From an uncultured Clostridia bacterium (GTDB lineage: Bacteria > Bacillota > Clostridia > Oscillospirales > Ruminococcaceae), in the NCBI GenBank assembly GCA_944386445.1, contig CALXBD010000144.1, positions 1 through 43,712 of the forward strand: 43,712 nt of DNA. Direction: 5' to 3'. The notes beneath the pieces were generated by a model. It searched no databases, was not told the origin of the DNA, and was given only the letters and a program-made list of their open reading frames with translations. Within the stretch, counting starts at the first letter, position 1, and each line of letters starts with the position of its first letter. A program made the position numbers and the translations under genes. Below, piece by piece: positions 17,491 through 41,224 of this stretch.

Positions 17491-18030
17491 TTATTCTGCG
17501 TAGTCGTAACCCAGCTTCAATGCCTTGAGGTTGGCATCCAGCAGGTGGGCTTTCTTTGCCGGAACACATTTTTTCATTGCCTCACAGAGAATGTCAAAGG
17601 TAGTGAAGCCGGTTTCTTTAAGGACCTTGCCCAACATGATGATGTTGGCCAAACCTGAAAGGTCATCATCCTTTGCCATCTGGGTGCAGGGAATGTAATA
17701 GGCGTCGATATCCGTGCGTATGCATTTGGCTTCGATCAGGGAGCTGTCGATGAAAATCTTACCGCCCGGCTGGACCGCATCTACGAACTTATCGTAAGAG
17801 GGAGCATTCAGCACCACCAAAGTCTCCGGTTCCAGAACGATGGGGCAGCCAATGGGCTCATCATCGATGCAGACGGAGCAGTTTGCAGTACCGCCGCGCA
17901 TTTCTGGGCCATAAGAAGGCAGCCAAGAAACGTATTTTTCCTCAATCATTGCCGTATAGGCGGCAACCTTTCCCATAAACAGGACGCCCTGTCCGCCGAA
18001 ACCGGCAATCAGCATATTCAGTACCATCAT
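17491..18030 (-). CDS. 2-oxoacid:ferredoxin oxidoreductase, gamma subunit
   Basis: 179 residues. In four-subunit enzymes the gamma subunit takes part in assembly and CoA/electron handling. The glycine-rich FGGQGVLFMGK (about 11-21) and the YGPEMRGG segment (about 40-47) are the family landmarks. The start overlaps the beta-subunit stop by 4 nt (18027-18030), with AAAGGGG about 8 nt upstream, so translation is coupled. Whether the enzyme uses 2-oxoglutarate (Kor) or branched-chain 2-oxoacids (Vor) cannot be decided here. Confidence 0.9.
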   Translation of the reverse strand: MMVLNMLIAGFGGQGVLFMGKVAAYTAMIEEKYVSWLPSYGPEMRGGTANCSVCIDDEPIGCPIVLEPETLVVLNAPSYDKFVDAVQPGGKIFIDSSLIEAKCIRTDIDAYYIPCTQMAKDDDLSGLANIIMLGKVLKETGFTTFDILCEAMKKCVPAKKAHLLDANLKALKLGYDYAE

Positions 18031-18782
18031 GCATGCACCCCTTTCTCGGTGACGTCTTTATAGACGCCCAGCGGATAGTAGGGGATCATCTTATCGTCGA
18101 TCCACTTCAGTGCTTCCTGAGGAGTCATGCCCCAGTTGGTGGGGCAGCCGGAAAGTACTTCCACGATGGAAAAGCCCTTCTTTTCGATCTGAGCAGTCAG
18201 TGCCTTTTTGATGGCAGCCTTTGCCTTGCGGATATTGGGCACATTGTTGACGGCCACACGTTCGGCATAAGCCACGCCGCTCAAAGTAGACAGCATTTCG
18301 CAGACCCGAACCGGATAGCCGGAATAGTTGACATCACGGCCATAAGGGGTGGTCTGGGTGACCTGGCCGGGCAGGGTAGTAGGAGCCATCTGACCGCCGG
18401 TCATGCCATAGATTGCGTTATTTACAAAGATAATGGTGATATTCTCGCCGCGGGTAGCGGAATGGACGGTTTCAGCGGTACCGATAGCTGCCAGGTCGCC
18501 GTCGCCCTGATAGGTGAATACCACATTATCCGGACGGGCGCGTTTGATACCGGTTGCTACTGCCGGAGCACGGCCGTGAGGCGCCTCCACCATGTCGCAG
18601 TTAAAATAGTCATATGCCATAACGGCGCAGCCTACCGGTGCAACACCGATGGCGTCTCCCAAAACCCCCAGTTCTTCCAGGCATTCCGCCACCAGCCGGT
18701 GGATAATGCCATGGGTGCATCCGGGACAGTAGTGGGTTTCTTTATCAGTCAATCCCTTGGTTTTCTGAAAAACGATGGCCAT
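18027..18782 (-). CDS. 2-oxoacid:ferredoxin oxidoreductase, beta (TPP-binding) subunit
   Basis: 251 residues. This subunit binds thiamine pyrophosphate and, in this family, an Fe-S cluster ligand set. The CPGCTHG motif lies near residues 19-25, and the TPP-Mg motif GDGD...NN with NNAIYGMTGGQ spans about 94-130. The reaction is CoA-dependent oxidative decarboxylation of a 2-oxoacid with ferredoxin as electron acceptor. It is separated from the alpha gene by 2 nt and overlaps gamma by 4 nt. Confidence 0.94.
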   Translation of the reverse strand: MAIVFQKTKGLTDKETHYCPGCTHGIIHRLVAECLEELGVLGDAIGVAPVGCAVMAYDYFNCDMVEAPHGRAPAVATGIKRARPDNVVFTYQGDGDLAAIGTAETVHSATRGENITIIFVNNAIYGMTGGQMAPTTLPGQVTQTTPYGRDVNYSGYPVRVCEMLSTLSGVAYAERVAVNNVPNIRKAKAAIKKALTAQIEKKGFSIVEVLSGCPTNWGMTPQEALKWIDDKMIPYYPLGVYKDVTEKGVHA

Positions 18783-18784
18783 GA

Positions 18785-19846
18785 TTATTTGGCACCTCCT
18801 GCCATTTTCTCAATTTCTGCCAGAACCTCAGCAGGGCTGGGCACGATGCCGCCGGTACGGCCAAAGAATCCTACCGGGCAGGCGCCATTGGCTGCCAGCC
18901 GGACATCCTCCACCATCTGGCCCATGCTCATTTCCACTGTCAGCATAGCTTTTACCTGTTTTGCAGCAGCGGCAATTTCTTTTTCCGGGAACGGCCACAA
19001 CGTAATCGGCCGGATCAATCCCACTTTAATGCCCTTTGCACGGGCTTTGGAAACTGCGGATTTCACCACGCGGGCGGTTGCGCCATAGGCGACCACTGCA
19101 AATTCCGCATCGTCCATATACTGCAGTTCCACCTGAACCTCTTTCTCACGGATGATATCATACCGTTTCTGACGTTCGATAATGGTGCGTTCCAGCTCCT
19201 GAGGCTGGAGGTAAAGAGAGTTCACAATATTGGGTTTCCGCTGGCCCTTAGTGCCGGTCAATGCCCACGGTTTCTCATGGGGAGTCGGCACGACTTCCGG
19301 GAACTCAACCGGTTCCATCATCTGTCCCAGCATACCATCTGCCAGGATCATAGCAGGCATCCGGTAAGTCTCAGCCAAATCGAAGGCCTGTCCGATCAGA
19401 TTAACGATCTCCTGAACGGAAGATGGTGCAAATACCAGAACCTGGCCATCGCCGTGGCCGGGAGCCTTTGTCGCCTGCCAGTAGTCTGCCTGAGAGGGCT
19501 GGATACCGCCCAAACCAGGGCCGCCGCGCATCACGTTGATGATCAGGCAGGGCAAATCAGATCCGATAATATAAGAAATGCCTTCACCTTTCAGGCTAAT
19601 TCCAGGGGAAGAAGACGAGGTCATGGCCCGGGCGCCGGTAGACGCACAGCCCAGCACCATATTAATAGCAGCGATCTCGCTTTCTGCCTGCAGATATGTA
19701 CCGCCAATTTTCGGCATCCGTTTTGCCATATAAGCGGCCACTTCGGTCTGAGGGGTGATCGGATAGCCGAAGAAATGCTTACATCCATTCCGGATTGCAG
19801 CCTCGGCCAGGGCTTCATTCCCCTTCATTAAAAATTTTTCTCCCAT
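18785..19846 (-). CDS. 2-oxoacid:ferredoxin oxidoreductase, alpha subunit (VorB/KorA-type)
   Basis: 353 residues. The N-terminal pyrimidine-binding domain shows GYPITPQTE (about 27-35) and SSPGISLKGEGISY (about 77-90), both characteristic of KorA/VorB proteins; the C-terminal domain includes VVAYGATARVVKSAV. I chose the ATG at 19846, with GAGG 8 nt upstream; the frame opens 30 codons earlier, but that part overlaps the ferredoxin gene. It follows the ferredoxin gene by 22 nt. Confidence 0.93.
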   Translation of the reverse strand: MGEKFLMKGNEALAEAAIRNGCKHFFGYPITPQTEVAAYMAKRMPKIGGTYLQAESEIAAINMVLGCASTGARAMTSSSSPGISLKGEGISYIIGSDLPCLIINVMRGGPGLGGIQPSQADYWQATKAPGHGDGQVLVFAPSSVQEIVNLIGQAFDLAETYRMPAMILADGMLGQMMEPVEFPEVVPTPHEKPWALTGTKGQRKPNIVNSLYLQPQELERTIIERQKRYDIIREKEVQVELQYMDDAEFAVVAYGATARVVKSAVSKARAKGIKVGLIRPITLWPFPEKEIAAAAKQVKAMLTVEMSMGQMVEDVRLAANGACPVGFFGRTGGIVPSPAEVLAEIEKMAGGAK

Positions 19847-19868
19847 GGTGTTTTCCTCATTCCTTCCC

Positions 19869-20075
19869 TTATTTCTCCACCGTAATGACGCAGTCCGGGC
19901 ACATCGTAGCGCACATTGCGCAGCCGATACAGTCATCCGGGTTAACCGGTGTGGCGGGATTATAGCCTTTACGGTTCAATTTCCCGGTATCCAAAGCCAA
20001 AACCTTTTTGGGACAGACTGAAACGCAGAGGCCGCAGCCCTTACAGCGGTCCTGATTAATGGTAACTTTTGCCAT
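19869..20075 (-). CDS. 2[4Fe-4S] ferredoxin, delta subunit of the 2-oxoacid oxidoreductase
   Basis: 68 residues with two complete cluster motifs: CKGCGLCVSVCP (about 11-22) and CIGCAMCATMCP (about 49-60). It is the electron-transfer subunit that passes electrons from the TPP centre to free ferredoxin. The ATG at 20075 has AGAGGG about 8 nt upstream. It lies directly upstream of the alpha subunit in the order delta-alpha-beta-gamma. Confidence 0.95.
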   Translation of the reverse strand: MAKVTINQDRCKGCGLCVSVCPKKVLALDTGKLNRKGYNPATPVNPDDCIGCAMCATMCPDCVITVEK

Positions 20076-20146
20076 TTTGATTCCCTCTTTCCTTTTGCGG
20101 CGCCAGCCGCTGCTCTCTCATACCGTTGGGTATGCTGTTTCTTATA

Positions 20147-20821
20147 TTATTCCTCTTCGGCCGAATCCCAAGGCTTTTTCACAAAAATCTCCACTGGAAA
20201 AGGATCCGGCACCTTTAATGGAGCCAATTTCTTATCATAGGCGGTACATTTCACCGGGATTCCTGCCAGATCGGCCACCTTTTGGGCAAAGGGCACTGAC
20301 TGTTCCACAATTGCGGTGGTTGTCTCCTCCCCCAGGTTGGAGCAGTTGACCACTCCTGTAGGCTGGAGCCGCGCTACCACTTGGATCTCTCTCAATACTG
20401 AAAGGGCTTCCTCCGGGGTTTGGGTCAGATACCGGCAGCAGTTCACCACATACCAAAACTCATAGTTATGCCGTGCAATTGCGGGGGCATACCGTCCCAA
20501 AGCGATTGCGCCGGCGTCATCGCCGCCCACATCCATTATAACACAATCTCCGCCATTGTCAAAAACCGCGTCCACGGCGCCGCTCAGGGCGGGGATATCC
20601 AAATTGGAGTTTGCGTACATCGGAGACACCATCCGTATTCCGGCATCTGCCAGCATAGGGGCGAAATCCGCGCTGCGGAAATAGGGATTCACGATATCCA
20701 GGTCCACCAAGGTGACCGTTTTTCCTGCTGCACGCTCCCTCAGGGCCAAATTTACAGCCAGATTTGTTTTCCCGCTGCCATAATGGCCGGTAATCAAATA
20801 TATTTTCCGGTTGGGTTCCAT
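20147..20821 (-). CDS. P-loop ATPase (CobQ/ParA-like) linked to the oxidoreductase operon
   Basis: 224 residues. Walker A GHYGSGKTN (residues 12-20), a switch-like VDLDIVNPYFRS (about 38-49) and a Walker B-like hydrophobic stretch ending DVGGDDAG (about 95-103) mark a deviant-P-loop SIMIBI ATPase. I do not know a specific partner. It is 71 nt upstream of the ferredoxin gene on the same strand, so it probably shares the transcript and might help mature or regulate the oxidoreductase, as other SIMIBI ATPases do for metalloenzymes; this is inference. The ATG at 20821 has AAAGGAG 6 nt upstream. Confidence 0.82.
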   Translation of the reverse strand: MEPNRKIYLITGHYGSGKTNLAVNLALRERAAGKTVTLVDLDIVNPYFRSADFAPMLADAGIRMVSPMYANSNLDIPALSGAVDAVFDNGGDCVIMDVGGDDAGAIALGRYAPAIARHNYEFWYVVNCCRYLTQTPEEALSVLREIQVVARLQPTGVVNCSNLGEETTTAIVEQSVPFAQKVADLAGIPVKCTAYDKKLAPLKVPDPFPVEIFVKKPWDSAEEE

Positions 20822-20885
20822 AAACGCTCCTTTCTGTCCGGCGCGGCGAAAAGTTCATAACAGCTGCCGGATGAATATTGTTTAT

Positions 20886-20894
20886 ATTTTACCA
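20886..20894 (-). promoter_or_regulatory. Extended -10 promoter for ATPase-oxidoreductase operon
   Basis: TGGTAAAAT on the minus strand (20894-20886), 65 nt before the ATPase start; no clear -35 hexamer. Confidence 0.4.
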
Positions 20895-21093
20895 CAATAC
20901 AGCGAGAAAAGATAGTCCTTTTTCAAAAAAGATTATGACAAATATGCGGACACGCGCGCGATTTTTTTGTTTATATTCTAAAAAATCGGCTTTTTTATCA
21001 ATAATAAGCGGAATTTTCTAAAAAAAGAAATTTTCTTTCCTTTATTTCCCTTTGGTCAAACAATTGATTTTCACTCAACTATAAATACATTCA

Positions 21094-21131
21094 ATATAAT
21101 AATACCCCCTGCCGTATGAGGACAGAGGGTA
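21094..21131 (-). terminator. Terminator after spo0A
   Basis: TACCCTCTG/CAGGGGGTA stem on the minus strand (21131-21123 with 21111-21103, one G-U pair) followed by a UUAUUAUU tract. Confidence 0.8.
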
Positions 21132-21164
21132 TATTTACTGTCTATGTTCTTTAGCCATTCGAGG

Positions 21165-21953
21165 TCATTTGCTGTTGGCATCTTCCTCATCGCCTTGGAT
21201 CTGCATCCGCAGCTTATCGGCGATCATGGCGATAAATTCGGAATTGGTAGGTTTGCCGCGGCTATTCTGAACCGTATAGCCGAAATAAGCATCCAAAGTA
21301 TCTACATCGCCGCGATCCCATGCCACTTCAATGGCGTGGCGGACAGCGCGTTCCACTCTGGAAGAAGTGGTCCCAAACTTTTTAGCAACAGCCGGATAAA
21401 GTTGCTTTGTAACAGAGTTGATCATTGCAATATCTTTAACGGAAAGCAGGATTCCCTCCCTTAGATAGTGGTAGCCTTTAATATGTGCCGGGACTCCAAT
21501 CTGATGGATAATTTCTGTGATCATCACTTCCAAATCGTGATCACTGTAACGCTTGCGGGCAGTCGCTTTCGCCTGAGGCATTTCAAAGCCGAACATCATA
21601 TCGATCCGATCATAAAGTTCCGGCAGGCTAAACGGTTCCAGCATATAAAAACATTTTGGGGACTGCATGATCTCCTTTGAGATCATCGGATTATCAAATG
21701 CAGATGTAACTATAAATCGGGGTGCGTCCTCTCTTCCCTTGAGGCTGCGAATGATGCCCAAGGCGTCTACATGAATCATAAGTGCGTTCATGACGACCAA
21801 ATCAGGTTTTTCAGAAGAAATTGCGGAAAGGATCTCAAAGCCATCTCTTTTGCGAAGCAATACCTCGTACCCTTTTTCCCGCAAAGCCTTTTGACAAATT
21901 GCCCCGAAATCAGCAGAATCATCGCTGATAAGGATTTTCTTGTGCGAATCCAA
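21165..21953 (-). CDS. spo0A: Sporulation regulator Spo0A with a degenerate receiver domain
   Basis: 262 residues. Spo0A is the master response regulator of sporulation entry. The C-terminal DNA-binding domain is well conserved: [38 protein letters not shown] and [12 protein letters not shown]. The receiver keeps the acidic pair (D11, D12) and the Thr/Ser switch (near T83), but the phosphoacceptor position is Asn (VVMNALM, N56) and the conserved Lys is Glu (MLEPF, E106). Start choice: TTG at 21953 has GGAGG at an 8-nt distance and gives a normal N-terminus; an ATG at 21968 would add five residues but lacks a good site. It has its own promoter and terminator and is not next to spoIVB. Confidence 0.93.
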
Positions 21954-22005
21954 ACATGCTTCCTCCATTCCGTTTAAACTATCGCCGTGTTTGCGATTTA
22001 TTCAT

Positions 22006-22034
22006 ATCTTATCACAAATTCTTCAAAATTTCAA
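22006..22034 (-). promoter_or_regulatory. Probable sigma-A promoter for spo0A
   Basis: TTGAAA (22034-22029) and TAAGAT (22011-22006) with 17-nt spacing on the minus strand, 52 nt before the TTG start. I found no clear sigma-H promoter or Spo0A box in the upstream region. Confidence 0.55.
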
Positions 22035-22170
22035 CATTTTTTCTGCACAAAAAACGACTTATAAAAAGGTCTGTATTTTTCATTCCTTTGTTGAATTTTA
22101 GCGAATTTTTAATTTCTGAATATACAATTGGTGAAACAGCAATTTTAGAGCATTTTTCTGCCTGTGACGC

Positions 22171-22242: not shown

Positions 22243-23298
22243 TTATTCACCTTCCAGCTGGGCCTTGGTCACCTGGCGGTAATCCAGCCAAATATAATGC
22301 CCTTCCTCTATTTCCAATTTTTGTTCCGGAATTTCGTCATGATACAGCAGAAGCGACAAATCGAGCATTGCCTTGGCGATTCCATCCCCATCGTTCAGAA
22401 CAGTGCCGCTCATTGTACCTGCGCGGACGGCCTCCTGTGCAGGAGCAGTGGCATCTACTCCAACAATTATGGGGTATTGTTGCGTTGTGACTCCTGCTTC
22501 CTGAAGGCTGTCGATGGCACCCAACGCCATGTCGTCGTTATTGGAGAAAACGACCTCAATTGCTTCTCCGAATTTTTCCTGCCACTGGCTCATTTTAGCC
22601 GCAGCCTGACTTCTGTTCCAGTTAGCTGTATCGCTGGCAAGCTTTTCAACCCGCACGCCCGCATTTGTCAACACCTGGATGCAGCTTTCCGTCCGAATCA
22701 AGGTATCCTGATGACCGGGTTCCCCCTCCAGTATCACATATTGAAGGATCCCGTCCCCATTTTTATCTACCCGTTCCTGCTCATTTTCCCATAAATCCAG
22801 CACGATTTTTCCCTGCAGGCTCCCGGATTGCTCCGCGGGCGCTCCGATATAATAGGCAGATTCCCATCGCTGCAAATCCTCTGCCACCGGCTGCCGGTTA
22901 AAAAACAAAATTGGGATTTCCGCATCCGCTGCCATGTCAATTAAGTAAGCAGCTGCGGTACGATCCACAATATTGACGCACAGAACATCATAATTAAGTG
23001 CGATAAATCGCTGAACTTGCTCATTTTGAATCAGCTGGGAGCTTTTTCCATCCATTGTGCTTACATTGATGCGAAGGTTCTCTCCCGCTTCCCGTTCCCG
23101 GGCCATACGCTCTAAGCTCTGCACAAGGTAGCCGATAAATGTGTCTTCCTGGCTGTACACTGCAACTCCTATTCTCAAGGTAGGCGGTTCCTGATCCCTT
23201 GTACGCACTCCAAAAATGTAGATAATCAGTAATATCACCGCCGCAGCCAGCAGGCTAATGGCCAATGGGAAACAGAATTTTTTGATTTTCGATCTCAT
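22243..23298 (-). CDS. Membrane-anchored galactose/glucose-binding (MglB-like) protein
   Basis: 351 residues. The fold is a periplasmic-binding-protein type 1 sugar receptor. The calcium-binding loop DKNGDGILQ (178-186) followed by EGEPGHQD and the segment NNDDMALGA are characteristic of galactose/glucose-binding MglB. Instead of a lipobox it has an uncleaved-looking N-terminal transmembrane segment (about 9-30). I chose the ATG at 23298, with AGAGGAG upstream; the frame extends 40 codons further but overlaps the previous gene. It overlaps the preceding binding-protein gene by 44 nt. A membrane anchor and the kinase neighbourhood suggest ligand sensing rather than transport. Confidence 0.85.
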   Translation of the reverse strand: MRSKIKKFCFPLAISLLAAAVILLIIYIFGVRTRDQEPPTLRIGVAVYSQEDTFIGYLVQSLERMAREREAGENLRINVSTMDGKSSQLIQNEQVQRFIALNYDVLCVNIVDRTAAAYLIDMAADAEIPILFFNRQPVAEDLQRWESAYYIGAPAEQSGSLQGKIVLDLWENEQERVDKNGDGILQYVILEGEPGHQDTLIRTESCIQVLTNAGVRVEKLASDTANWNRSQAAAKMSQWQEKFGEAIEVVFSNNDDMALGAIDSLQEAGVTTQQYPIIVGVDATAPAQEAVRAGTMSGTVLNDGDGIAKAMLDLSLLLYHDEIPEQKLEIEEGHYIWLDYRQVTKAQLEGE

Positions 23299-24181
23299 AC
23301 ATCTCCTCTTTTCTGACCAAAACGGATTCCACCACTGGTTCGGAAAGCTCTTTTCCCAAAACGGCACTTGCCGCCTGTTCCACTGCCTGATACCCAACGC
23401 CATATCCGCTCCAGGCAACTACTCCCCTGATAACACCATATTCAAGCCCTGCCAAAATTCTTTCCTCGGTACCCGCTACGTAAAGCGAACTCGTTTTTCC
23501 GTTTTGATCCAGAAGCTGCAGTGCATGTACAGCGGATTCCGGTTCCGGAAAAATCACAGCATCGACCCCTTCTATCGTTTCAACTGTAAAGTCTGCGCCG
23601 CATCGCAAAACGGTAAATCCCTTTTCCGTCAAGGATTCTTCGGCCGCTTCCAGTCGGGCACGAATCCCGCTGCTGCCCGGAGCCGCATCCACAAGCAGTA
23701 CATGTCCTTCCGAAAAATCCTCTTCGATTGCTGCGGCCAGTTGCTCTCCTACCCACACGTTATCGGGCATCACAGAGATGCAAGCCCCTTCCAGGCTGCT
23801 TTCCATCGTAACGACGGGAATCTTCGGGTTATCCTTGACAATGACTTCCAGTGCCTCCGTTTGCGCCGGCACTACTACCAGCCCATCCGCACCGTTTTTT
23901 ATTTCCTGCCGGATCAATTCCGTTTGTTCCGATACGGAATTGCTTTCACCCAAAGCCAAAAAACGCAGCTCCACGCCATAATCCGCAGCCGCTTTTGCCA
24001 TTCCCTGACGGGCTTCCGACCAGATGGAGCTGTCCGATTCCCGTACAATAACAGAAATTTCCACCCGTCTCTCTGCCTTTTCAGGCCAGGATATATCCCT
24101 TATGAACAGGGAAAGGATTACCAAAAGGCTAAGAATCGCCAATATTCCCAGCTGGATCAGGTTTTTATGCTTTCGTTTCAT
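23255..24181 (-). CDS. Membrane-anchored sugar-binding (RbsB-like) protein
   Basis: 308 residues. An N-terminal transmembrane segment (about 9-27) is followed by a type 1 periplasmic-binding-protein domain: ISVIVRESDSSIWSEARQGM, the GADGLVVVPAQTEAL strand-loop and the GIRARLEAAEESL helix. No lipobox is seen, so it is anchored with the binding domain outside. The ATG at 24181 has AAGGAGGG at 9 nt and lies inside the 3' end of the kinase gene (17-nt overlap), so the two are translationally coupled. This order resembles the XylFII-LytS-YesN xylose sensor of Clostridium beijerinckii, where a binding protein activates the kinase; the ligand here is unknown. Confidence 0.85.
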   Translation of the reverse strand: MKRKHKNLIQLGILAILSLLVILSLFIRDISWPEKAERRVEISVIVRESDSSIWSEARQGMAKAAADYGVELRFLALGESNSVSEQTELIRQEIKNGADGLVVVPAQTEALEVIVKDNPKIPVVTMESSLEGACISVMPDNVWVGEQLAAAIEEDFSEGHVLLVDAAPGSSGIRARLEAAEESLTEKGFTVLRCGADFTVETIEGVDAVIFPEPESAVHALQLLDQNGKTSSLYVAGTEERILAGLEYGVIRGVVAWSGYGVGYQAVEQAASAVLGKELSEPVVESVLVRKEEMYEIENQKILFPIGH

Positions 24182-25990
24182 AACCTGTTCCCTCCTTCTG
24201 GTAGGCAGCAGCCTGTTCTTCGTTCAGCGCGGGCAGATGAATCCGTACTAAAGTACCTTCATCCGGCTCACTGAAAAATTCCAGCCCGTATTCCGGCCCG
24301 AAAAACAGTTGGATCCGCCGGTGGATGTTTCGTACACCGATTCCGGAACCTTTACTGTGTTTCAGCGGCTGGCTCTCATCCAAAAGGTGATCCAGCATTT
24401 CCCCAGGGATCCCCAGGCCGTTATCCTGTACATCAATATAAAGGTCGCCGCCCTTTCTCCACGCATGAACAGTAATTTCCCCGTCCTCATCCATTGCCGC
24501 CATGCCGTGATAAATGGCGTTTTCCAATATTGGCTGAACGATCAGCTTCAATGTATACAATCCTTCTGTATCCGGTTCAGCTGTGATCCGAATTTCAAAG
24601 CGTTCCTTATACCGGATTGCCTGTATGGTACCATAATGGCGGACATGCTCCAGCTCATCTTTCAGCGGGATCACAGTTTTCCCCCGGCTTAAGGATATGC
24701 GGAACAATTTCCCCAGGGCGTTTACCATACGGGTAGCGTCTTCATAGCGTCCGTTTTCCGTCAGCCAGATCACCGAATCCAGAGTATTATAAAGAAAATG
24801 GGGATTGATTTGGGACTGCAGTACCTCCATTTCCAGCCGGCGCTTATTTTCTTCCTGCTCGATGATATCATCCATCAGATGCCGCAGCGTCGATACCATG
24901 GACTGAATGGAATGGGCCAGATGCTGTACCTCCTCACAGCCCTCCTCTTGAAATTCCACATTTTCCTTTCCTGCTTCCATGGCCTTGACCGCCAGATTCA
25001 GCCGGCTTAATGGTCGGGAAATATGTTCAGACAGGTGGGTATTCACAAATGCCAGCAAAAATACTGTAAACAGCAACAATGCCACTCCAAACCACTGCAG
25101 CTCGTCAATATCAGCCGCAAGATTTTTGACCGGTATCACACCCACCAGTTTCCATCCGGTATAGCCTACCGTCTTTACCAAAACCAGCTGAGGGATACCG
25201 TCTATCACTTCTTTATGAATCCCATCGCTCAGGCTGGCATCTGCCACTGGACTCTCTTCTGTCAAGCCCGCATAGATCAACTGCTGATCGGGGTGATAAA
25301 TTACTTCACCGCTGCGATCAGCAATATACATGTACCCCCCCCACCGGGGATCCCTTCGTTCCGACACACTTTTTCCAGCCCTGAAAAGCTCATATCCAGA
25401 AGAAGCACGCCTCTCCTCGTTTCCCCGCCATACGTCAGCTCTACATGGCGGCTCAAGGATATAACCCATGGCCATTCCGCACCGGTTTGAAAAAGATTCT
25501 GCACATAAGGCGCGGAAAAATGCTGATTTTCAATCTGATCCAGCGCACGAATAAACCACTGCTGCTCCTGCGGACGTACGTCTGTTTTCAAATCCAAGGC
25601 CGGAGCAGCCGCAACCAGGCTCCCGCTCTCCTGAAAAATTGCAATGGAAATCAATTCATTCCTGTTTTCTTCATAGAGCAGTTCCAAACTTTCAGAAGGG
25701 GATGATTCTTCCAAATCGATGTTTTTCAATACTCGATAGCAAATGGTATCTGACAGCTGCATCATATCCCGCAAATAGGTATCCAATTCCTGATTGACCT
25801 GTTCGAGAATACGGGTGCCGGTATCCTCCTGCAGCCGCTGGGTGGTTTTGGAAAATCTCAAAACCAGCATTCCGCACAGCAAAGCCATTCCGATCACCGT
25901 TACGGCGGTAAACGAAATGGATATCATCATCTGGATTCCCATTTTGCGATACGCACGGATGATTTTTTGAAAAAAAGATCGAAAAATCAC
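24165..25990 (-). pseudogene. YesM/LytS-type sensor histidine kinase, frameshifted in a G8 run
   Basis: Two overlapping frames together make one complete kinase. The upstream frame (GTG start at 25990 to 25301) encodes a transmembrane segment (about 20-45) and most of an extracellular Cache-like sensor domain. The downstream frame (about 25342 to 24165) encodes the end of the sensor, a second membrane segment, HAMP-like linker, and the His_kinase domain with QINPHFLYN (phospho-His), ENAIYHG (N box), DNGLGIP and GSGIGVRNI. The frames are joined at eight consecutive G on the minus strand (25342-25335); adding one G (or removing two) restores a continuous protein of about 608 residues. It could be a real mutation, phase variation, ribosomal slippage or a sequencing error. 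Confidence 0.85.
25335..25342 (-). repeat. Homopolymer of eight G at the kinase frameshift
   Basis: C8 on the plus strand (G8 in the kinase mRNA), flanked by a GGT codon and TAC. The length is one short of (9) or two over (6) a run that keeps the reading frame. Confidence 0.9.
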
Positions 25991-26014
25991 GCAGCCACCC
26001 CGTTTCCTTTTTTG

Positions 26015-27601
26015 CTACCGATCTCCTGAACGGTACTTGGATGGTGACATCCCAAAATACCGCTTAAACACATAGCTGAAATAGTTGGCATCCACATATC
26101 CTGTCTGCTGCGCGATCAAATAGGTTTTTTCTTCCGTATTCCGCAGCAGCTGAGCTGCCGTCTCCATTCTGACTTTGGTGACATAGGCGGTAAAGCTCAT
26201 CCCGGTATTCTTTTTAAAGAGGGTAGAGAAGTACGCCGAAGAAAGATGCAGATGACTGCACAGTGTATCCACAGACAGCTCGCTGTCCGAGTAATTTTGC
26301 TGGATAAACTCTTTTGCCTGATCTACCAGGTTGCCGGTACTGTCGCTGCGGCGTCTGCCCAATAGTTTCCATAGATGGAGACAATGCTCACAGCACCAGT
26401 TTCCCATCTGTCCCGGGGAGCCGAAACTGGACAGCTGATTTAATTTCACGCCTTCTTCTCCGAACAGTTCCTCCGATGGGATCTGCCCATCCCGGGCAAT
26501 TTTAACCAGGCAGTTCATCCAGTCCATAAAAAACAGCTGGCACTGATTCAGCGAAGCGCTCCGAACTTTTTCAATCAGGCTGCTGACTACCTGGCGGACC
26601 TGCTCTTCCGTGCCTACCTTCAGCGCACTGGTCAGATCCTGCTCATCGTTCTCATCAAAGCTGATATATCGGCTTTTCCGCGGTTCCACATCCCGGATAT
26701 AGATGGTCCGTCCGGAGCCAAGCAGCACCCGATATTCCAACGCATCCCGGGCGCACTTTGCAGAAGCGGACAATTCCCATGGCTTTTCATATTGTTCCCC
26801 AACTCCTACTGTCAAGCGCAGGCCGGTTTCACTTTCCGTAATCCGCCGCACCCGCTCCAGCTCGTTGAGCAAGGCATAAATAGATGTCTCCTGTTCAAAA
26901 GAAAAAACCGCTGCCAGATTATCCTTATAAAGAAACATGTGCATAACACATCCAGCCAGTTCAAAATTCCGGCTGAATACATTCTGGATTGTCAGAAAAA
27001 TCAACTCATCCGGCACATCGCCGCTCTGCCCGCCGTCAATCATGGCAGCTGCCCATCTGCAGCCGCTTAACGTCAGTTCATATCGTGCTGCGCGGTCATA
27101 AACGCGTTCCGGCCGAAGGCTCCCGTCCAGCAGGCGGCTGTAAAACATCCCGCGCAGCACAGGAAGGTTTTCCTCATATTCCCGCCGCAGCCGTTCCGCA
27201 TTTCTCAGTTCCGCATGACGGCTGTCCATCTCCTCATGAAGCCGCACCAACACATTAGAAAGTTCTTCAGCGTTTACTGGTTTCAGCAGGTATTCAAATA
27301 CATTGATGCTGACTGCCTGCCGGGCATATTCAAAATCGTCAAATCCGCTAAGGATCAGCAGTTTTGCAGCCGGAAGACTCTGACGCAGCCGCCGGCCCAA
27401 TTCCAATCCGTCCATAAACGGCATCTTAATATCGGTAATCACCACATCCGGCTTCAGATGTTCGCACAGCTCCAGCGCTTCCACGCCATTCTGAGCCTCT
27501 CCCGCTAAACGATAGCCCAGATGCTCCCAATCGATTTTCCGGCTGATCCCCATCCGGATTTCTTCCTCATCGTCTACCAGCAGGACCCGATACTCCTCCA
27601 T
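26015..27601 (-). CDS. YesN-type response regulator with AraC HTH
   Basis: 528 residues. The receiver domain (about 1-120) has the acidic pair near 10-12, phosphoacceptor D57 (ITDIKMP) and K107 (LLKPV), all intact. A middle region (about 130-420) is typical of YesN proteins. The C-terminal AraC-type helix-turn-helix pair (about 428-526) includes YFSTLFKKNTGMSFTAYV and the ANYFSYVFKRYFGMSPSKYR segment. The ATG at 27601 has AAAGGGGG upstream. It lies 24 nt upstream of the kinase gene, so regulator and kinase form a pair; the likely target is a nearby sugar transporter such as mgl. Confidence 0.93.
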   Translation of the reverse strand: MEEYRVLLVDDEEEIRMGISRKIDWEHLGYRLAGEAQNGVEALELCEHLKPDVVITDIKMPFMDGLELGRRLRQSLPAAKLLILSGFDDFEYARQAVSINVFEYLLKPVNAEELSNVLVRLHEEMDSRHAELRNAERLRREYEENLPVLRGMFYSRLLDGSLRPERVYDRAARYELTLSGCRWAAAMIDGGQSGDVPDELIFLTIQNVFSRNFELAGCVMHMFLYKDNLAAVFSFEQETSIYALLNELERVRRITESETGLRLTVGVGEQYEKPWELSASAKCARDALEYRVLLGSGRTIYIRDVEPRKSRYISFDENDEQDLTSALKVGTEEQVRQVVSSLIEKVRSASLNQCQLFFMDWMNCLVKIARDGQIPSEELFGEEGVKLNQLSSFGSPGQMGNWCCEHCLHLWKLLGRRRSDSTGNLVDQAKEFIQQNYSDSELSVDTLCSHLHLSSAYFSTLFKKNTGMSFTAYVTKVRMETAAQLLRNTEEKTYLIAQQTGYVDANYFSYVFKRYFGMSPSKYRSGDR

Positions 27602-27621
27602 CTTCCAGCCCCCTTTGGCTC

Positions 27622-27630
27622 AGTATACCA
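27622..27630 (-). promoter_or_regulatory. Extended -10 promoter for the response regulator
   Basis: TGGTATACT on the minus strand (27630-27622), 21 nt before the start codon, just past the mglC terminator. Confidence 0.45.
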
Positions 27631-27641
27631 TATTTCCCCAA

Positions 27642-27689
27642 TAAAAGGAAGCAGGTATCCTCCGCTTTCCAGCGAACAGACACCTGCTT
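27642..27689 (-). terminator. Terminator after mglC
   Basis: AAGCAGGT/ACCTGCTT stem (27649-27656 with 27682-27689) with an inner CGCT/AGCG pairing; on the minus strand it is followed by CCTTTTATT. Confidence 0.7.
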
Positions 27690-27707
27690 GTCGCAATGTC
27701 GAAGGAA

Positions 27708-28796
27708 TTATCTCTTTACCAGGTATTTCCGCATATCCAATGCGCAGGCGAACAGGATAATGCCGCCTTTGATGAGATACTGAAGGTCCTGGTCGATACT
27801 TACCATGTTCAGGCCGATGAAGATCAGCCGGAGCATGAGGACACCAATGATGATGCCTCGGATCTTTCCGATACCTCCGACAAAGGAGACGCCGCCGATA
27901 ACGCAGGCCGCGATGGCATCCAATTCATAGTTAAGACCGGTGTTGGCGTTATTGGAGGCAACGCGAGCGCCTTCGATAAAGCCTGTAAATGCGTACATGG
28001 CACCGGCCAGGGCAAAAACCATGATCGTCGTCATCAGGACGTTTACTCCGGAAACTCTGGCAGCTTCCTCGTTGGAACCCAAAGCAAACATATTCTTGCC
28101 GAAGGTCGTTTTGTTCCAGATAAACCACATAACGGCTGCCAAAATCAAAGCTATCCAGACATAGTTTGGAATAGCAGTACCGGCGATGGTCAGGAAAGAA
28201 CCTTTAACGAAATTGCTGTAAGATGCATCCAGGCTGGAGATTGCCATGCCGTTGTTATTGCCCTGTTTGATGTAAAGCAGAAGCAGAGTATAAACAATCA
28301 GCTGGGTGCCCAGGGTTACAATAAAGGGATGCAGTTTGAATTTGGCAACGAAGAATCCGTTAAAAGCGCCAAATGCAGCACCGATAATGACTACCAGCAA
28401 GATAACCACCGGGATGGGGACTACCCCAATTTGGGGCCACATCTTAGTAGAGCTGCCCACAGCCTGCAGCAGTGAGGCAGAGACACAGGCGGTTAAGCCG
28501 ACGATTCGTCCGGCAGACAGGTCGGTACCGGTCAGGACGATACAGCCTGCAACTCCCAAAGCCACCGGCAGGTAAGCTGCGGTCTGGGAGATAATATTAA
28601 TAATAGAAGTGGGACGAATAAAATTGGGGTTTTTGATCGCAATGATAATAATGGCAATGAGCATCAAAATAAACAGCGCGTTATTCAAAAGCCCATTCCC
28701 GATCCGTTTCAAAGTCGTTTTCCGGTTTTCCGGTTTCCACGCATTCTTAAAGCTGTTCCGGAACCCGTTCAGACGGGCAGTTATGGCATTACTCAC
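27708..28796 (-). CDS. mglC: Galactose-type ABC transporter permease MglC
   Basis: 362 residues with about 8-10 hydrophobic segments, matching the RbsC/MglC permease family of sugar importers. Characteristic pieces are PTSIINIISQTAAYLPVALG, TGTDLSAGRIVGLT near residues 85-98, GAFNGFFVAKFKLHPFIVTLGT and AACVIGGVSFVGGIGKIRG near 290. The start is GTG (28796-28794), with AAGGAGG at 8 nt. It follows the truncated mglA by 12 nt. With mglA broken and mglB absent nearby, the permease would need an ATPase and binding protein from elsewhere in the genome. Confidence 0.9.
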   Translation of the reverse strand: MSNAITARLNGFRNSFKNAWKPENRKTTLKRIGNGLLNNALFILMLIAIIIIAIKNPNFIRPTSIINIISQTAAYLPVALGVAGCIVLTGTDLSAGRIVGLTACVSASLLQAVGSSTKMWPQIGVVPIPVVILLVVIIGAAFGAFNGFFVAKFKLHPFIVTLGTQLIVYTLLLLYIKQGNNNGMAISSLDASYSNFVKGSFLTIAGTAIPNYVWIALILAAVMWFIWNKTTFGKNMFALGSNEEAARVSGVNVLMTTIMVFALAGAMYAFTGFIEGARVASNNANTGLNYELDAIAACVIGGVSFVGGIGKIRGIIIGVLMLRLIFIGLNMVSIDQDLQYLIKGGIILFACALDMRKYLVKR

Positions 28797-28808
28797 GGAA
28801 ATTCCTCC

Positions 28809-29648
28809 TTACACGTATTTGGCTGCCAGCATGAGGATCTCCTCCTGGCTGGTATTGGCGGCATCCACTTCTCCAGCAATCCGCCCGCCCGACATGACCA
28901 GAATCCGGTCACAGATTCCCAGCAGCTCCGGCATCTCGGAAGAAACCACAATAACGCCCTTGCCCTGGTTTGCCAGGTCGATGATCAACTGATAAATTTC
29001 ATATTTTGCACCAACGTCAATTCCCCGGGTCGGCTCGTCCAGCAAAAGCACCTCCGGTTTTGTGAGAAGCCAGCGCCCGATAATAACCTTCTGCTGGTTG
29101 CCGCCGGACAGAGAACGGATCTGTGTTTTCCGGCTGGGGGTCTTGATGTGCATAGACTGAATCGCCCAATCGGTTTTTTCGTGCATCATCTTATTGCTGA
29201 GGCAGAGTCCGCCTTTCAGGTAATCCTTCAGGCTGGATATCACGGTGTTATCCTCGATGCTGCGAATGGCAAAGATACCTGTGGCCCGCCGTTCCTCTGT
29301 CAGAAGGGCAAAGCCGTTTTTGATGGATTCCCGGGGACTTTTATTGCGGATCTGCTTTCCGTGAAGGGTAATGGTTCCGCCCTCCCGGGTCATGGAACCA
29401 AAGAGATTTTCCAGCACCTCTGTTCGCCCGGAGCCGTCCAGGCCGGCAATACCCAAAATTTCTCCCTTCCGCAGCTGGAAGGTGGCATCTTTCAGACGGG
29501 TGTATTTTCCCTTCATATGTTGGACATCCAGAATCGTCTCGCCAGGTTTGTTGGTCTTGGGCGGGAAACGGTTTGTCAGTTCCCGTCCTACCATCAGCCG
29601 GATGATTTCATCCATCGTCAGGGTGTTGGCGGGACGAGTGGCTACCCA
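28809..29648 (-). pseudogene. mglA: mglA (sugar ABC transporter ATPase), 5' half missing
   Basis: Full-length MglA has about 500 residues in two fused ATPase domains; only about 280 remain. The preserved part starts at WVATRPANTLTMDEIIRLMVGREL (the linker after domain 1), then carries domain 2 with a degenerate Walker A (GLDGSGRTE), signature LSGGNQQK and Walker B VLLLDEPTRGIDVGAKYE. At about 29646-29650 the homology stops and a plus-strand recombinase relic begins. A TTG at 29672 could in theory start a short product, but it has no ribosome binding site and would lie in foreign sequence. The ATPase is almost certainly non-functional unless the missing half is supplied in trans. Confidence 0.9.
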
Positions 29649-30831
29649 CGCCGGGGAACACCTCTGCTCCAATCCGCCCTATGGGTATCAGAAAGACCCG
29701 GCGGACAAAAAGAAGTGGATCGTGGACGAGGAAGCCGCCGAGATCGTCAAACGGAATTTCAACCTCTGCAATGCGGGGAAAGGCCCCATGCAGATTGCCA
29801 AACTGTTGACTGCCGAACGTGTCCTGACCGTCAAGGCTCACTACGCCCAGCGGGACGGAAAACTACTGCGGGAGAACCCGTACAAGTGGAGCCCCAAGAC
29901 TGTTGCGGGAATTTTGGAGCGGCCAGAGTACACCGGCTGCACGGTGAACTTCAAGACCTATTCCAAGTCCCACAAGCTGAAAAAGCGGTTGCATAACGCC
30001 CCGGAGAACCAGCGGATTTTCCCCAATACCCAGCCCGCCATTATCGATGAACAAGTCTTTGCACGAGTGCAGGAGTTGCGGGAAAACAAGCGCCGCCCGG
30101 CCAAGCAAGCCGAACGGCAAGGGCTGTTTTCTGGCCTGCTGTACTGCGCCGATTGTGGAAGCAAACTGCATTTCGCCACAGGCAAAAACATGACACCGCA
30201 GCAAGACTGCTATCGTGTTCCCGGTATAAGAGCAATACGGGCGACTGTACCATGCACTTCATCCGGAAAGAAACGCTGAAACGGTTCGTATTGCAGCGGA
30301 TTTTCGATGTGACGGCGCTGTTCTTTGACGATGCCATGGCATTTGAGGAAGCGGCGAGAAAGCAACGGTTCCAAGAAGCCGAAAAAGACACCAAGAAGCG
30401 TAAGCGTGAAATCGCCCAGGCGGAAAAGCGCATTGCCGAACTTGACCGGATTTTCAAACGTATCTATGAGGATGACATCAGCGGGACGATCAGCCATGAA
30501 CGGTTCTTGAAACTTTCTGCCGACTATGAGGCGGAGCAAAAAAAAACTGACGGAGCGGGTCAAGACATGGCGGGAAGCGGTAGAAAGCTTTGAACAGGAT
30601 CAAGCCGATTTCGCCAGCTTTGCAGCCATTGTGCGGAAGTATGTGGGCATCCGGGAACTGACGCCCACCATCGTCAATGAGTTTGTGAAGAAGATCATCG
30701 TCCATGCGCCAGATAAGTCCAGCGGCCACCGCAGGCAGAAGATTGAACTGGTCTGGAACTTCATCGGAGAAGTCAACCTGCCGGGCGACGATCAGACTGT
30801 GGAACGGCAAAGAAAAGGCAGGACAGCATGA
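29649..30831 (+). pseudogene. Large serine recombinase relic (Recombinase/zinc-ribbon part)
   Basis: The translation matches the C-terminal two thirds of a large serine recombinase: the Recombinase domain (NPPYGYQKDP, KWIVDEEAAEIVKR, GILERPEYTG), the zinc ribbon (LYCADCGSKLHF) and a DUF4368-like coiled-coil tail. The N-terminal resolvase catalytic domain with its Ser nucleophile is missing. Two further breaks are visible: one base lost near 30214 (CYR then out of frame; the expected Cys-Ser-Arg-Tyr follows in the next frame) and one extra A in the A9 run at 30538-30546. The tail then reads through to a stop at 30829-30831. It is a dead remnant of a mobile element lying against the mglA break. 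Confidence 0.85.
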
Positions 30832-30937
30832 CCTTTCGGCCATGCCGCCCTGCGACAATTAAATTACTTCCTTATGGGGGCGCACCTTTAGCTGCACCGC
30901 CTTCACAAATCGACGCTAATTGAAATACAATCCGTCT

Positions 30938-31963
30938 TCAGCTATGTCGACGCTCTTGTTCAGAACAAATCCCGGAAAGGATATGAAACAGGTTTTCGCC
31001 CATCACTACATGGCCAAAATCCGTAGGATGAATAAGATCCGCACCCAAGCAAGCCAGGTTATCTAAGATCTGTGTTCCTTCCACTAAATGGAGATTGGAA
31101 TAAGGCAGAGTGTCTGCCAATTCCCGAAGGATCCGACAGTAGCCGTCTTCCCGCTCCTTTAACAGGGTAGGGCTGGGACAAAGGGGTTCAATGTTGGGAA
31201 AAATAGTCGTCATGACTACCGGCTTATCCGGATGAGAAACACAAACTTCTTCAATCAAAAATTTTGCCCGATGGCCAAATTCCTCTTCCGAAAAAAAGCC
31301 CCGCATATTAACGCCCAGTTCCAGAAAAGCCATATCCCAATTTACATCTTTTGATATAAATTTTGCCATTTCCGGCTCACAGTAGCAAGCGCCGGACAAG
31401 CCGAAATTATACACATCCCACCCCAACCGCATCGCTGCATATTGAACATAAGACAAGCTGTTGTTCTGGGCATAACATCCTTGGGTGATGGAGGATCCAT
31501 ACGCCATTAAGGTTTTTTCAGGACGTTCTTCCTTTTTAGGCGGACGAATACTGCTTCCATAACTTTCTACATGGCGTATGGCAAACTGCATCGGAGGAAG
31601 CTGAATACGCCAGACATTTCGTTTCCATACCGGTTCATCCCCGAAATTTAAGGAGTCCCACGCTTCAGGGAGTTCCAGATGCAGCGTTAGGGTTCGTCCA
31701 CCTTCAGCATAAGCAGACGCATATTGATGGGGGCCTCGAAAGACTTGGATCCATCCGCTGCCATACAGACATTCCAGAACTATTTCTGTACACCATCCAT
31801 CTGTACAAAAACGGATCTCCACTCCGGCGCAGTTCTCCGCTCGGAAATTCCGCCGCTTCTCCAAGGCGAGCCGCACTTTTTCCGGAAACCTCTGCAAAAT
31901 TGCGCCGCAGCCGGTCTCCTGGACATCCCAGACATTATGCAGCTCCAATCCGCGATAAATCAC
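30938..31963 (-). CDS. SGNH/GDSL-type hydrolase
   Basis: 341 residues. An N-terminal beta domain (about 1-150) precedes an SGNH esterase domain: block I YGSSITQG (about 155-162, GSS in place of GDS), the block II Gly (GLSGA), block III-like LGVNMRG with its Asn, and block V DLIHPTDFGH with the Asp-x-x-His pair. These enzymes deacylate sugars or other esters. There is no signal peptide. The start is GTG at 31963, overlapping the TGA of the upstream isomerase gene and preceded by AAGGAG at 8 nt. It is last in the ABC-transporter operon and probably processes the imported sugar derivative. Confidence 0.85.
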   Translation of the reverse strand: MIYRGLELHNVWDVQETGCGAILQRFPEKVRLALEKRRNFRAENCAGVEIRFCTDGWCTEIVLECLYGSGWIQVFRGPHQYASAYAEGGRTLTLHLELPEAWDSLNFGDEPVWKRNVWRIQLPPMQFAIRHVESYGSSIRPPKKEERPEKTLMAYGSSITQGCYAQNNSLSYVQYAAMRLGWDVYNFGLSGACYCEPEMAKFISKDVNWDMAFLELGVNMRGFFSEEEFGHRAKFLIEEVCVSHPDKPVVMTTIFPNIEPLCPSPTLLKEREDGYCRILRELADTLPYSNLHLVEGTQILDNLACLGADLIHPTDFGHVVMGENLFHILSGICSEQERRHS

Positions 31964-32790: not shown

Positions 32791-32801
32791 CAGATCACTC
32801 C

Positions 32802-33803: not shown

Positions 33804-33825
33804 TTTCCTTTTCCTTCCTCCCATA

Positions 33826-33857
33826 AAAACAGGGAACCTGTTTCCAGGTTCCCTGTT
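33826..33857 (-). terminator. Intra-operon terminator/attenuator after the solute-binding gene
   Basis: A 13-bp perfect stem AACAGGGAACCTG/CAGGTTCCCTGTT (33828-33840, 33845-33857) with a 4-nt loop, followed by UUUUU on the minus strand. The dehydrogenase start codon is only 25 nt further on. Confidence 0.85.
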
Positions 33858-33870
33858 CCGTGTCAAGGAA

Positions 33871-35514: not shown

Positions 35515-35568
35515 AAAAGTGCCTCCTTAAGTCTTGAATATTCCAATAGCCTCCAAACGGAGGGCTTA

Positions 35569-36438: not shown

Positions 36439-36451
36439 GCAATATCCCCCC

Positions 36452-37381: not shown

Positions 37382-37538
37382 TTATCTCTCCCCTTTTCTA
37401 TATTTTTGATCTTTGAAGGATGTTTTCGGCATAATGCATATTTTTTTGACCTTCAAGCGTTAATAATTCCACTTCCCTTGATTTATTCAGAAAAACGACC
37501 TGTATTTTTTCCGATTTGGCTCATCGGAATTTTTGAGG

Positions 37539-37567
37539 TTGAATTTTAAGGTGCTTCATGTGATAAT
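37539..37567 (+). promoter_or_regulatory. Promoter for the membrane AraC-type regulator
   Basis: TTGAAT (37539-37544) and GATAAT (37562-37567) are 17 nt apart, with an additional extended -10 TG two bases before the -10 (TGTGATAAT). Confidence 0.65.
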
Positions 37568-37608
37568 AAAATTACTGTAACGGAAACTTGAAATAAGAGG
37601 TGTCTGTT

Positions 37609-39972: not shown

Positions 39973-39998
39973 ACGGCAGCCTCTAGGCTGCCGTTTTT
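39973..39998 (+). terminator. Terminator hairpin oriented to the plus strand
   Basis: ACGGCAGCCT/AGGCTGCCGT stem (39973-39982, 39985-39994) followed by five T on the plus strand, abutting the spoIVB stop. On the minus strand it may also close spoIVB. No plus-strand gene lies between it and the previous terminator. Confidence 0.75.
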
Positions 39999-41224
39999 CA
40001 TCCTGCCAGCTGTTCCTCCAGATTTTCGCAGTTATCCAGCATATTCTCCGCGAAAATCCCGTAACCGCGGGTAGGGTCGTTGACAAACACATGGGTTACA
40101 GCCCCCACCAGCTTGCCGTTCTGAAGGATGGGGCTGCCACTCATTCCCTGCACGATGCCGCCGGTTGTTTCAAGCAGTTCCGGGTCTGTAACCCGAATCA
40201 CCATATTCTTGGTAGCTGTATTGTCGCCGACGTTGATTTTTTCAATGACAATGTCATATCTTTTTGGGGAAGTACCATTTACCGTTGTCAATATTTCCGC
40301 GGCGCCTTCCTGAACATCCTGCCTCAGGCAAAGGGGAACCGCGCTATTTCCGGCGGCAGGATTCTGTGAAAGGACTCCGTAAACGCCGGTTTCATTATTC
40401 AAATACAGTGTACCGCAGGAAAATGCCGAAGTAAAACTGCCCTGAAGCTCGCCTGGTGTACCGACCTCGCCTTTCTGGACACCGTGGATTTGCACGGGGA
40501 CTACCTCTCCAGAGGCCAAAGGCATCGTTTCACCGGTATCTACGTCGCAGACAGCATGGCCCAGCCCGCCGAAAATCCCGGTGGCGGGATCATAAAAGGT
40601 TACCGTTCCGATTCCTGCGGAGGAATCCCGCACCCAAATCCCACAGCGGTATTCTCCGTCAGAAAGGCTTTCCTCCGGTGTGATCCAGATACTCATCTCC
40701 ATCCCGTCACGCCGGACCGTCAGTTCGACTTTGTTTCCGCCGGCGGCACGAATACAATTTGTCAATTCATCGTTGGAAGAAACAGTCTGGCCATTTACTG
40801 CTAAAATCACATCGCCTTTACGCAGCCCCGCGTCGCGGGCAGGGTCAGCTGTACCTGAAGAAGTCTCCACCGGGTTCAATGCGACCACAACTACTCCGTC
40901 TGTCAGCATTTTCAAGCCAAAAGGAGTTCCGCAGGGTATAACATACTGTTCTTCCACCTGATGCAAATAGGTGCTTTTAATGGGAATAATCCCCAATAGT
41001 TTTAGCGACGCCTCTCTGGAAAGGGAAGTGTTGGTCCCTACCTGGTATTCCGTTTGGCCAGAAGTTTCGGCTTCCACGGAAGGCAACTGACGAATGGAAA
41101 ATTCTTTTGTCTCAAACACATAAAAGCTGTCGGGAATCTCAAAATTCAGATAAGTAACGTATCCCATTACCGTTATGGCGACTACCGCGGCAAATAGGGA
41201 AACGGTACGAATTAACTTACGCAT
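39998..41224 (-). CDS. spoIVB: SpoIVB peptidase (S55 family)
   Basis: 408 residues. SpoIVB is a forespore-secreted serine peptidase that signals activation of pro-sigma-K processing in the mother cell. It has an N-terminal membrane/signal segment (about 5-27), a PDZ domain (about 115-190, DAGLRKGDVILAVNG) and the S55 peptidase domain with GLGHAV (catalytic His region) and VQGMSGSPI (nucleophile Ser), followed by GAVTHVFVNDPTRGYG. The ATG at 41224 has a purine-rich GAGGGAGAG site. In Bacillus and many clostridia spoIVB lies directly upstream of spo0A; here they are 18 kb apart. Confidence 0.96.
   Translation of the reverse strand: MRKLIRTVSLFAAVVAITVMGYVTYLNFEIPDSFYVFETKEFSIRQLPSVEAETSGQTEYQVGTNTSLSREASLKLLGIIPIKSTYLHQVEEQYVIPCGTPFGLKMLTDGVVVVALNPVETSSGTADPARDAGLRKGDVILAVNGQTVSSNDELTNCIRAAGGNKVELTVRRDGMEMSIWITPEESLSDGEYRCGIWVRDSSAGIGTVTFYDPATGIFGGLGHAVCDVDTGETMPLASGEVVPVQIHGVQKGEVGTPGELQGSFTSAFSCGTLYLNNETGVYGVLSQNPAAGNSAVPLCLRQDVQEGAAEILTTVNGTSPKRYDIVIEKINVGDNTATKNMVIRVTDPELLETTGGIVQGMSGSPILQNGKLVGAVTHVFVNDPTRGYGIFAENMLDNCENLEEQLAG

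Follow-up and report, generated by a model that had tools for sequence, protein, structure and literature searches.

A genus-wide pseudo-receiver in the sporulation regulator Spo0A of Candidatus Merdivicinus

We analysed a 43,712-nucleotide contig (the window) from an uncultured Clostridia bacterium, taken to belong to the genus Candidatus Merdivicinus (NCBI: Clostridia, Oscillospiraceae), and found that its Spo0A joins an intact DNA-binding domain to a receiver that lacks both the phosphoacceptor Asp and the conserved Lys. Both residues are absent from every Spo0A found in the genus, the constraint on the receiver has moved to another part of the domain, and spore markers and the layout of early sporulation promoters are retained. 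We favour, with a probability of roughly 60%, a working orthologous Spo0A whose repurposed pseudo-receiver is activated by abundance, dimerisation or a partner or ligand, and not by Asp phosphorylation. An earlier note on the same DNA had described the substitutions; the genus-wide state, the recurrence of receiver erosion through the order group and the shifted receiver constraint go beyond it.

The window encodes a Spo0A-family protein

The minus strand is open throughout the spo0A gene, where the plus strand has in-frame stops (Table 1). An alternative in-frame ATG lies at 21968; we prefer the TTG at 21953 because a promoter alignment places a GGAGGA box and a TTG or GTG at the matching position in all six spo0A genes of the genus. 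Two conserved blocks further upstream, TGTTGAAA and TGTGATAAGAT, are the putative spo0A promoter.

Table 1. Features of the window discussed in the text
Feature	Position	Strand	Description
spo0A	21165..21953	-	262 aa, TTG start; pseudo-receiver and intact Spo0A_C DNA-binding domain
Codon 56 (AAC)	21786..21788	-	Asn replacing the phosphoacceptor Asp; from sequence
Codon 106 (GAA)	21636..21638	-	Glu replacing the conserved Lys; from sequence
Codons 11 and 12	21918..21923	-	Kept acidic pair; from sequence
GGAGGA	21961..21966	-	Likely ribosome-binding site; aligned in 6/6 genus members
TGTTGAAA (22029-22036) and TGTGATAAGAT (22006-22016)	22006..22036	-	Blocks conserved in 6/6 genus members
spoIVB	39998..41224	-	Peptidase_S55, 283.6 bits; about 18 kb from spo0A here, directly upstream of it in several relatives
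P-loop protein	20147..20821	-	Pfam matches weak and sub-threshold; neighbour conserved on the downstream side of spo0A
vorB and two more 2-oxoacid:ferredoxin oxidoreductase subunits	17491..19936	-	Conserved downstream synteny

The predicted protein matches the Spo0A equivalog model TIGR02875 over its full length (260 bits against a cut-off of 200), with 152 bits for the DNA-binding domain against Spo0A_C and just 37 bits for the receiver against Response_reg, above the cut-off of 30.2. Its DNA-binding domain is 63% identical to 1lq1_C over 111 columns. T196, R199-A203, R205 and H206 of Spo0A_C are invariant among the 62 sequences compared; they fall in the stretch T196-H206, taken to be the recognition helix. 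The full-length match and the kept helix place the predicted protein within TIGR02875.

The host assembly is a 2.77-Mb draft, 85.86% complete, with the window as one contig. The second, intact spo0A that would have made this gene a paralogue was not found in this draft genome, where one protein scores above the TIGR02875 cut-off. A paralogue or an assembly artefact, with the real Spo0A in the missing part of the assembly, would be compatible with that completeness, but we give this reading hardly any weight: the phosphoacceptor is lost in five other assemblies as well, three genus members at 96-98% completeness (G002, G003 and G004) each hold a single full-length Spo0A, and the ancestral synteny is kept. 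A second Spo0A_C match in the host genome (L002, 76-81 aa) was rejected as a spo0A copy and is a small separate protein. At L002 1498-1725 (plus strand), a stand-alone protein of 76 aa corresponds to the second part of Spo0A_C (38 bits) and adjoins a helix-turn-helix protein.

The ancestral position of spo0A in the genus is next to spoIVB: a SpoIVB motif precedes spo0A by at most 500 nt in G001, G003, G004, G006 and the outgroup G036. The two genes are not adjacent in the window or in G002, where no SpoIVB motif lies within 4 kb upstream of spo0A. Downstream, the set at 17491-21953 (spo0A, the P-loop protein gene and the 2-oxoacid:ferredoxin oxidoreductase operon) stays together in G001-G004, G036 and Marseille-P2935 (L053). 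The TIGR02875 score, the spoIVB linkage in the genus and the downstream synteny argue for true orthology, and because model, domain, synteny and targets agree we place the protein in the Spo0A family.

The stretch that separates spoIVB from spo0A in the window (22243-39777) is about 18 kb long and carries genes for sugar uptake and regulation; spoIVB and spo0A adjoin each other in four further members of the genus. Within it, at 28809-30279, an ABC ATPase gene, of mgl type by position, seemingly lacks its front half and abuts a serine recombinase piece on the opposite strand, a junction that is either an insertion or an assembly join. Upstream of spo0A in G002 is a gene for a 1215-aa TIR-domain protein (L060 4473-8120).

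Loss of the phosphorylation residues

Read from the TTG start, the five receiver positions are D11, D12, N56, S84 and E106. Of the residues of a canonical receiver, the acidic pair is present while Asp and Lys are replaced, and the domain matches Response_reg without the phosphotransfer residues, as a pseudo-receiver does. Codons and profile matches thus confirm what had been described from the window alone, a receiver with N56 and E106 and the acidic pair kept beside an intact DNA-binding domain. S84 is no anomaly, since Ser occupies this position in 81 of the 90 Spo0As of a class-wide sample. The N/E combination is found in four assemblies (G000, G001, G003 and G004); the receivers of the last three are 62-67% identical to that of the window and 82-96% identical among themselves. 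Because N/E recurs in assemblies whose receivers differ in sequence, a base error is ruled out.

Conservation in the clade, a check that the earlier note had proposed, extends beyond the N/E pair: Asp is absent from all six Spo0As of the genus (five Asn, one Ser), and so is Lys (five Glu, one Gln). The acidic pair is retained in five of the six, G002 having lost D12 and carrying Ser at position 56. Ser84 and an aromatic residue at K-3 occur in all six; Phe stands at K+2, and D+4 is a residue other than Pro.

Outside the genus, Asp is lost in 16 of the 51 Spo0As of the order group. The rest of the family keeps it in 20 of 28 (otherwise six Glu, one Asn and one Ala) and the other families in 15 of 23 (otherwise five Asn, two Glu and one Ser), 'family' and 'order' being the groupings of the genome search, not NCBI's. 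The nearest Spo0A outside the genus (G036) has an intact phosphorylation site, and that of G044 has an N/M receiver. These order-group counts cover 57 Spo0As from 55 of 61 relative genomes; the other six (G005, G015, G022, G023, G040 and G046) have no Spo0A above the cut-off and stand outside the residue counts, the match in G046 being partial and ended by a contig edge. Of the 89 readable Spo0As in the class-wide sample, 85 have Asp (four have lost it), and 77 combine Asp, the two acidic residues and Lys. The sample was drawn from 128 searched genomes, 109 of them with a Spo0A_C match, of which 90 were taken (one in the family of the window). The 19 left out comprised seven near duplicates or genomes already included and 12 with a weaker or partial best match, so diverged Spo0As may be under-counted in this sample. 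Most compared genomes are draft metagenome assemblies, and duplicate loci (L001, L026 and L032-L035) were dropped from the comparisons.

On a tree of the DNA-binding domain alone, the 24 Asp-less rows among 145 imply at least 19 changes; because this tree was built on little more than 110 columns, we claim merely that the losses are scattered. By these residue counts, erosion of the Spo0A receiver recurs across the order group, with Merdivicinus as the genus-wide case.

Constraint on the receiver has moved

The receiver of the genus evolves with a dN/dS of 0.08-0.27 in the four pairs with dS below 1, the remaining pairs being near saturation. Purifying selection on both domains disfavours the earlier suggestion that the protein is inactive. 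At a DNA-binding-domain identity of 0.80-0.90, receiver identity is 0.57-0.60 within the genus and 0.55-0.58 among intact receivers; for the same divergence of the DNA-binding domain, the genus pseudo-receiver has changed no more than intact receivers have. In other atypical lineages, receiver divergence exceeds that of intact receivers at a DNA-binding-domain identity of 0.70-0.90.

Compared with intact receivers, those of the genus are more conserved in beta1, alpha1, beta2, alpha2, beta4 and beta5 and less conserved in beta3, the beta3-alpha3 loop, alpha4 and the beta5-alpha5 loop, with little difference in the other elements. A further test compared segments picked in the light of this result, and a 14-element conservation profile repeats that test without such a choice. 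The profiles of the six genus sequences and of the intact receivers correlate with r = 0.007, as against a mean of 0.77 and a minimum of 0.34 in 554 overlapping control groups of six intact receivers drawn from 51 distinct sequences, none of them as low as the genus. Relative to intact receivers, constraint has shifted away from the phosphorylation pocket and alpha4 and towards alpha1-beta2-alpha2. AlphaFold2 predicts a normal receiver fold (mean pLDDT 91.3) with a loose linker, and the nearest matches among solved structures are the Spo0A DNA-binding domain, ordinary receivers and response regulators. The receiver is kept yet apparently used through another face.

The same data bear on the idea that the receiver still takes phosphate, at a different residue (D11, D12, S84 or the target of a Ser/Thr kinase), or that N56 deamidates to Asp. 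We consider this very improbable. The acidic pair in five of six genus members, with Ser84 and an aromatic K-3 present in every one, would suit it, but Lys is lost too, G002 has neither D12 nor Asn at 56, and the pocket-forming beta3, the loop that follows it and the beta5-alpha5 loop are less conserved than in intact receivers.

Early sporulation promoters retain a Spo0A-type layout

No consistent arrangement emerged when the regions upstream of spoIIE, spoIIGA and spoIIAA were searched for the strict 0A box (TGNCGAA). Alignment of genus promoters (footprinting) revealed a CGAC block at a fixed distance ahead of TATAAT, and the block and its wide spacing were then tested as a pattern. With one mismatch permitted in the hexamer, GAC-N21-23-TATAAT lies upstream of spoIIE in 21 of 26 genomes (1.45 expected from shuffles, 3 on the opposite strand) and upstream of spoIIGA in 24 of 25 (0.96 expected, 2 on the opposite strand), after removal of two spoIIGA regions (L129 and L133) in which no start was recognised. 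Two of the 14 genus promoters run off their contigs; the 12 examined all have the pattern, and ten of them have CGAC. The pattern was derived from genus promoters and partly tested on them, so the independent part of the test is the 39 non-genus promoters, of which 33 carry it. Upstream of spoIIAA, TCCGACC is found in all six genus members examined.

Over-long spacers of this kind are a property of Spo0A-activated promoters in B. subtilis. In the 0A box TGTCGAA, whose core GTCG is complementary to CGAC, G2, C4 and G5 are the contacted bases according to excerpts of PMC3485338; the same paper describes Spo0A of C. difficile binding early promoters that have no perfect 0A box. By pattern, the early sporulation promoters of the genus appear to carry 0A-type sites. 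The layout occurs with intact and with broken receivers alike and so seems to have been retained after the loss of Asp; being shared with intact-receiver relatives, it speaks for retained targets and says nothing on the way Spo0A is switched.

Kept promoters also weigh on a reading in which Spo0A is constitutively on as a regulator of something other than sporulation, for instance metabolism, while spore genes are driven otherwise. The conserved linkage to the 2-oxoacid:ferredoxin oxidoreductase operon favours it, as does the control of other processes by Spo0A in other species (excerpts of PMC3485338); against it stand the 0A-type promoters of spoIIE and spoIIGA, and we judge it improbable.

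Spore markers and kinases

SpoIVA, SpoIIE, SigE and SpoIIAB were each found in all seven genus genomes and SASP in six, the exception being G001 (77% complete). None of the 61 relatives, including those with an intact receiver, has a SpoIIE match that reaches the model cut-off, and genus SigE is slightly under its own (337-345 bits against 348.6), as it is in 40 of the 61 relatives. Judged from these five marker families, sporulation would be retained in the genus.

Among relatives at least 90% complete, with marker presence scored by hand from the search tables, all five markers occur in 13 of 13 genomes with an intact receiver, in 11 of 14 that keep Asp and have lost an acidic residue or Lys, and in 11 of 15 without Asp; G002, G003 and G004 of the genus are among these last 11. 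Receiver erosion thus accompanies marker loss in part of the order group, but not in Merdivicinus. Eight relatives at this completeness have no SASP, seven with an eroded receiver and one in which no Spo0A was found. Seven genomes at least 91% complete (G014, G018, G020, G024, G026, G031 and G042) keep SpoIVA, show no SASP and have eroded receivers; they are possible recent losers of sporulation. In G023 (96% complete), Spo0A, SpoIVA, SpoIIE, SigE and SASP are all missing together, which looks like real sporulation loss.

Such counts would be expected if sporulation were being lost in the lineage, the receiver going first and the DNA-binding domain persisting. Complete marker sets in every intact-receiver relative but not in every eroded one, the state of the SASP-less relatives and the greater divergence of the other atypical receivers all fit decay. 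So does G044 with its N/M receiver, if it is Ethanoligenens harbinense, a tentative identity. That species is listed as a non-spore-former carrying Spo0A in the accessible part of PMC3533761. In the genus genomes, however, markers and promoter layout persist, and the receiver matches intact ones in conservation when divergence of the DNA-binding domain is equal, its constraint being moved and not lost. G023, with the look of a true loser, is missing the five genes named above together. We regard decay of sporulation in Merdivicinus as unlikely.

A Spo0B-like domain (SPOB_ab) was found in none of the seven genus genomes and in one of the 61 relatives, there below the cut-off. Each of the eight HisKA matches in the host genome, of which one falls below the cut-off, has a response regulator as neighbour; the genome thus shows no orphan kinase of HisKA type. 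In G003, also of the genus, ten of 15 HisKA kinases were examined: one stands apart from any visible regulator and one is a hybrid. Of the relatives with an intact Spo0A, G010 has three without a regulator and two hybrids (ten of 12 examined), and G036 has none without a regulator and six hybrids (ten of 14). The count covers the HisKA type alone, and single receivers such as Spo0F are not distinguishable by family search; as evidence on Spo0A control, the kinase arrangement is suggestive only. The proposal that the lineage has lost phosphorelay-controlled sporulation therefore stands in part: the missing Spo0B-like domain and Asp agree with it, whereas the retained spore markers and Spo0A-type promoters do not.

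A proposed mode of action

On the favoured reading of a working, repurposed Spo0A, the protein of Candidatus Merdivicinus would still activate early sporulation genes, and cells would presumably still form spores. Its pseudo-receiver would be unable to accept a phosphoryl group at the usual Asp, and its DNA-binding domain would recognise the predicted 0A-type boxes at the -35 position of spoIIE and spoIIGA. The receiver, modelled as a normal (beta-alpha)5 domain and kept by selection, would act via another surface, alpha1-beta2-alpha2, and probably keeps the protein dimer-competent or binds a partner or ligand. Spo0A activity would then be set by amount and interaction, not by a histidine kinase. 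Of the possibilities raised beforehand, control by another signal or activity without phosphorylation fits best, and we infer it from the patterns above.

Several findings count against this reading. One genus member, G005 (95% complete), has the spore markers and Spo0A-type promoters, but the genome search found neither spo0A nor its P-loop neighbour there, owing to either an assembly gap or loss. Phe at K+2, present in the genus, favours the inactive form in CheY (available text of PMC12632262). The absence of orphan kinases is not general either, given the HisKA kinase of G003.

A bolder version is tentative, and we lean against it: that Merdivicinus Spo0A starts sporulation outside two-component signalling, its pseudo-receiver reading a new intracellular partner or ligand via the alpha1-beta2-alpha2 face, and that the order group broke the phospho-switch many times, so that phosphorylation would be no universal requirement for entry into sporulation.

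Relation to known systems

With Spo0A of Bacillus and Clostridia (TIGR02875), the window protein shares domain order, DNA-binding domain, neighbours and, as far as sequence goes, target promoters; it differs in the replacement of Asp and Lys and in a receiver constraint shifted towards alpha1-beta2-alpha2. It would best be classed as a member of the Spo0A family and not as a canonical phosphorylated receiver. Clostridial Spo0A is activated by orphan kinases, for example in C. perfringens, and the lack of a detected Spo0B-like domain is a likeness to that system; C. perfringens-type Spo0A is phosphorylated on the conserved Asp (part of PMC11210211), which the window protein lacks.

Pseudo-receivers and aspartate-less receivers (ChxR, GlnR, HP1043 and others) likewise have a receiver fold without phosphorylation residues. 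Several of these regulators dimerise without phosphorylation, and a 2025 review lists routes of the abundance, dimerisation and partner type while calling the activating mechanisms a mystery (PMC12632262, in the text available). A natural Spo0A case is absent from that available text, in which 'spo0' occurs 0 times. In PMC4395418, Spo0A appears as a laboratory mutant example and in two references, with no natural pseudo-receiver case, and the accessible portion of a chicken-gut paper (PMC8035907) mentions neither Merdivicinus nor sporulation. A literature search, mainly of titles and open-licence PubMed Central, recognised no report of a natural pseudo-receiver Spo0A, a weak negative.

Teaching presents Spo0A phosphorylation as the gate that generally controls sporulation. 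Should sporulation of gut bacteria be driven by a phospho-dead Spo0A, this gate can be rewired, and the genus would offer a lineage in which selection indicates which face of the receiver took over. Genome and metagenome surveys use the presence of spo0A as a marker of spore-forming ability and, in their accessible parts, do not consider receiver status (PMC8340488, PMC11536998). If decay is instead at work, receiver status would be a sharper genomic predictor of sporulation than the presence of spo0A.

A possible cultured test case is the named strain Marasmitruncus massiliensis, whose Spo0A (L046 5971-6786, plus strand) keeps Asp and has one acidic residue and the Lys replaced.
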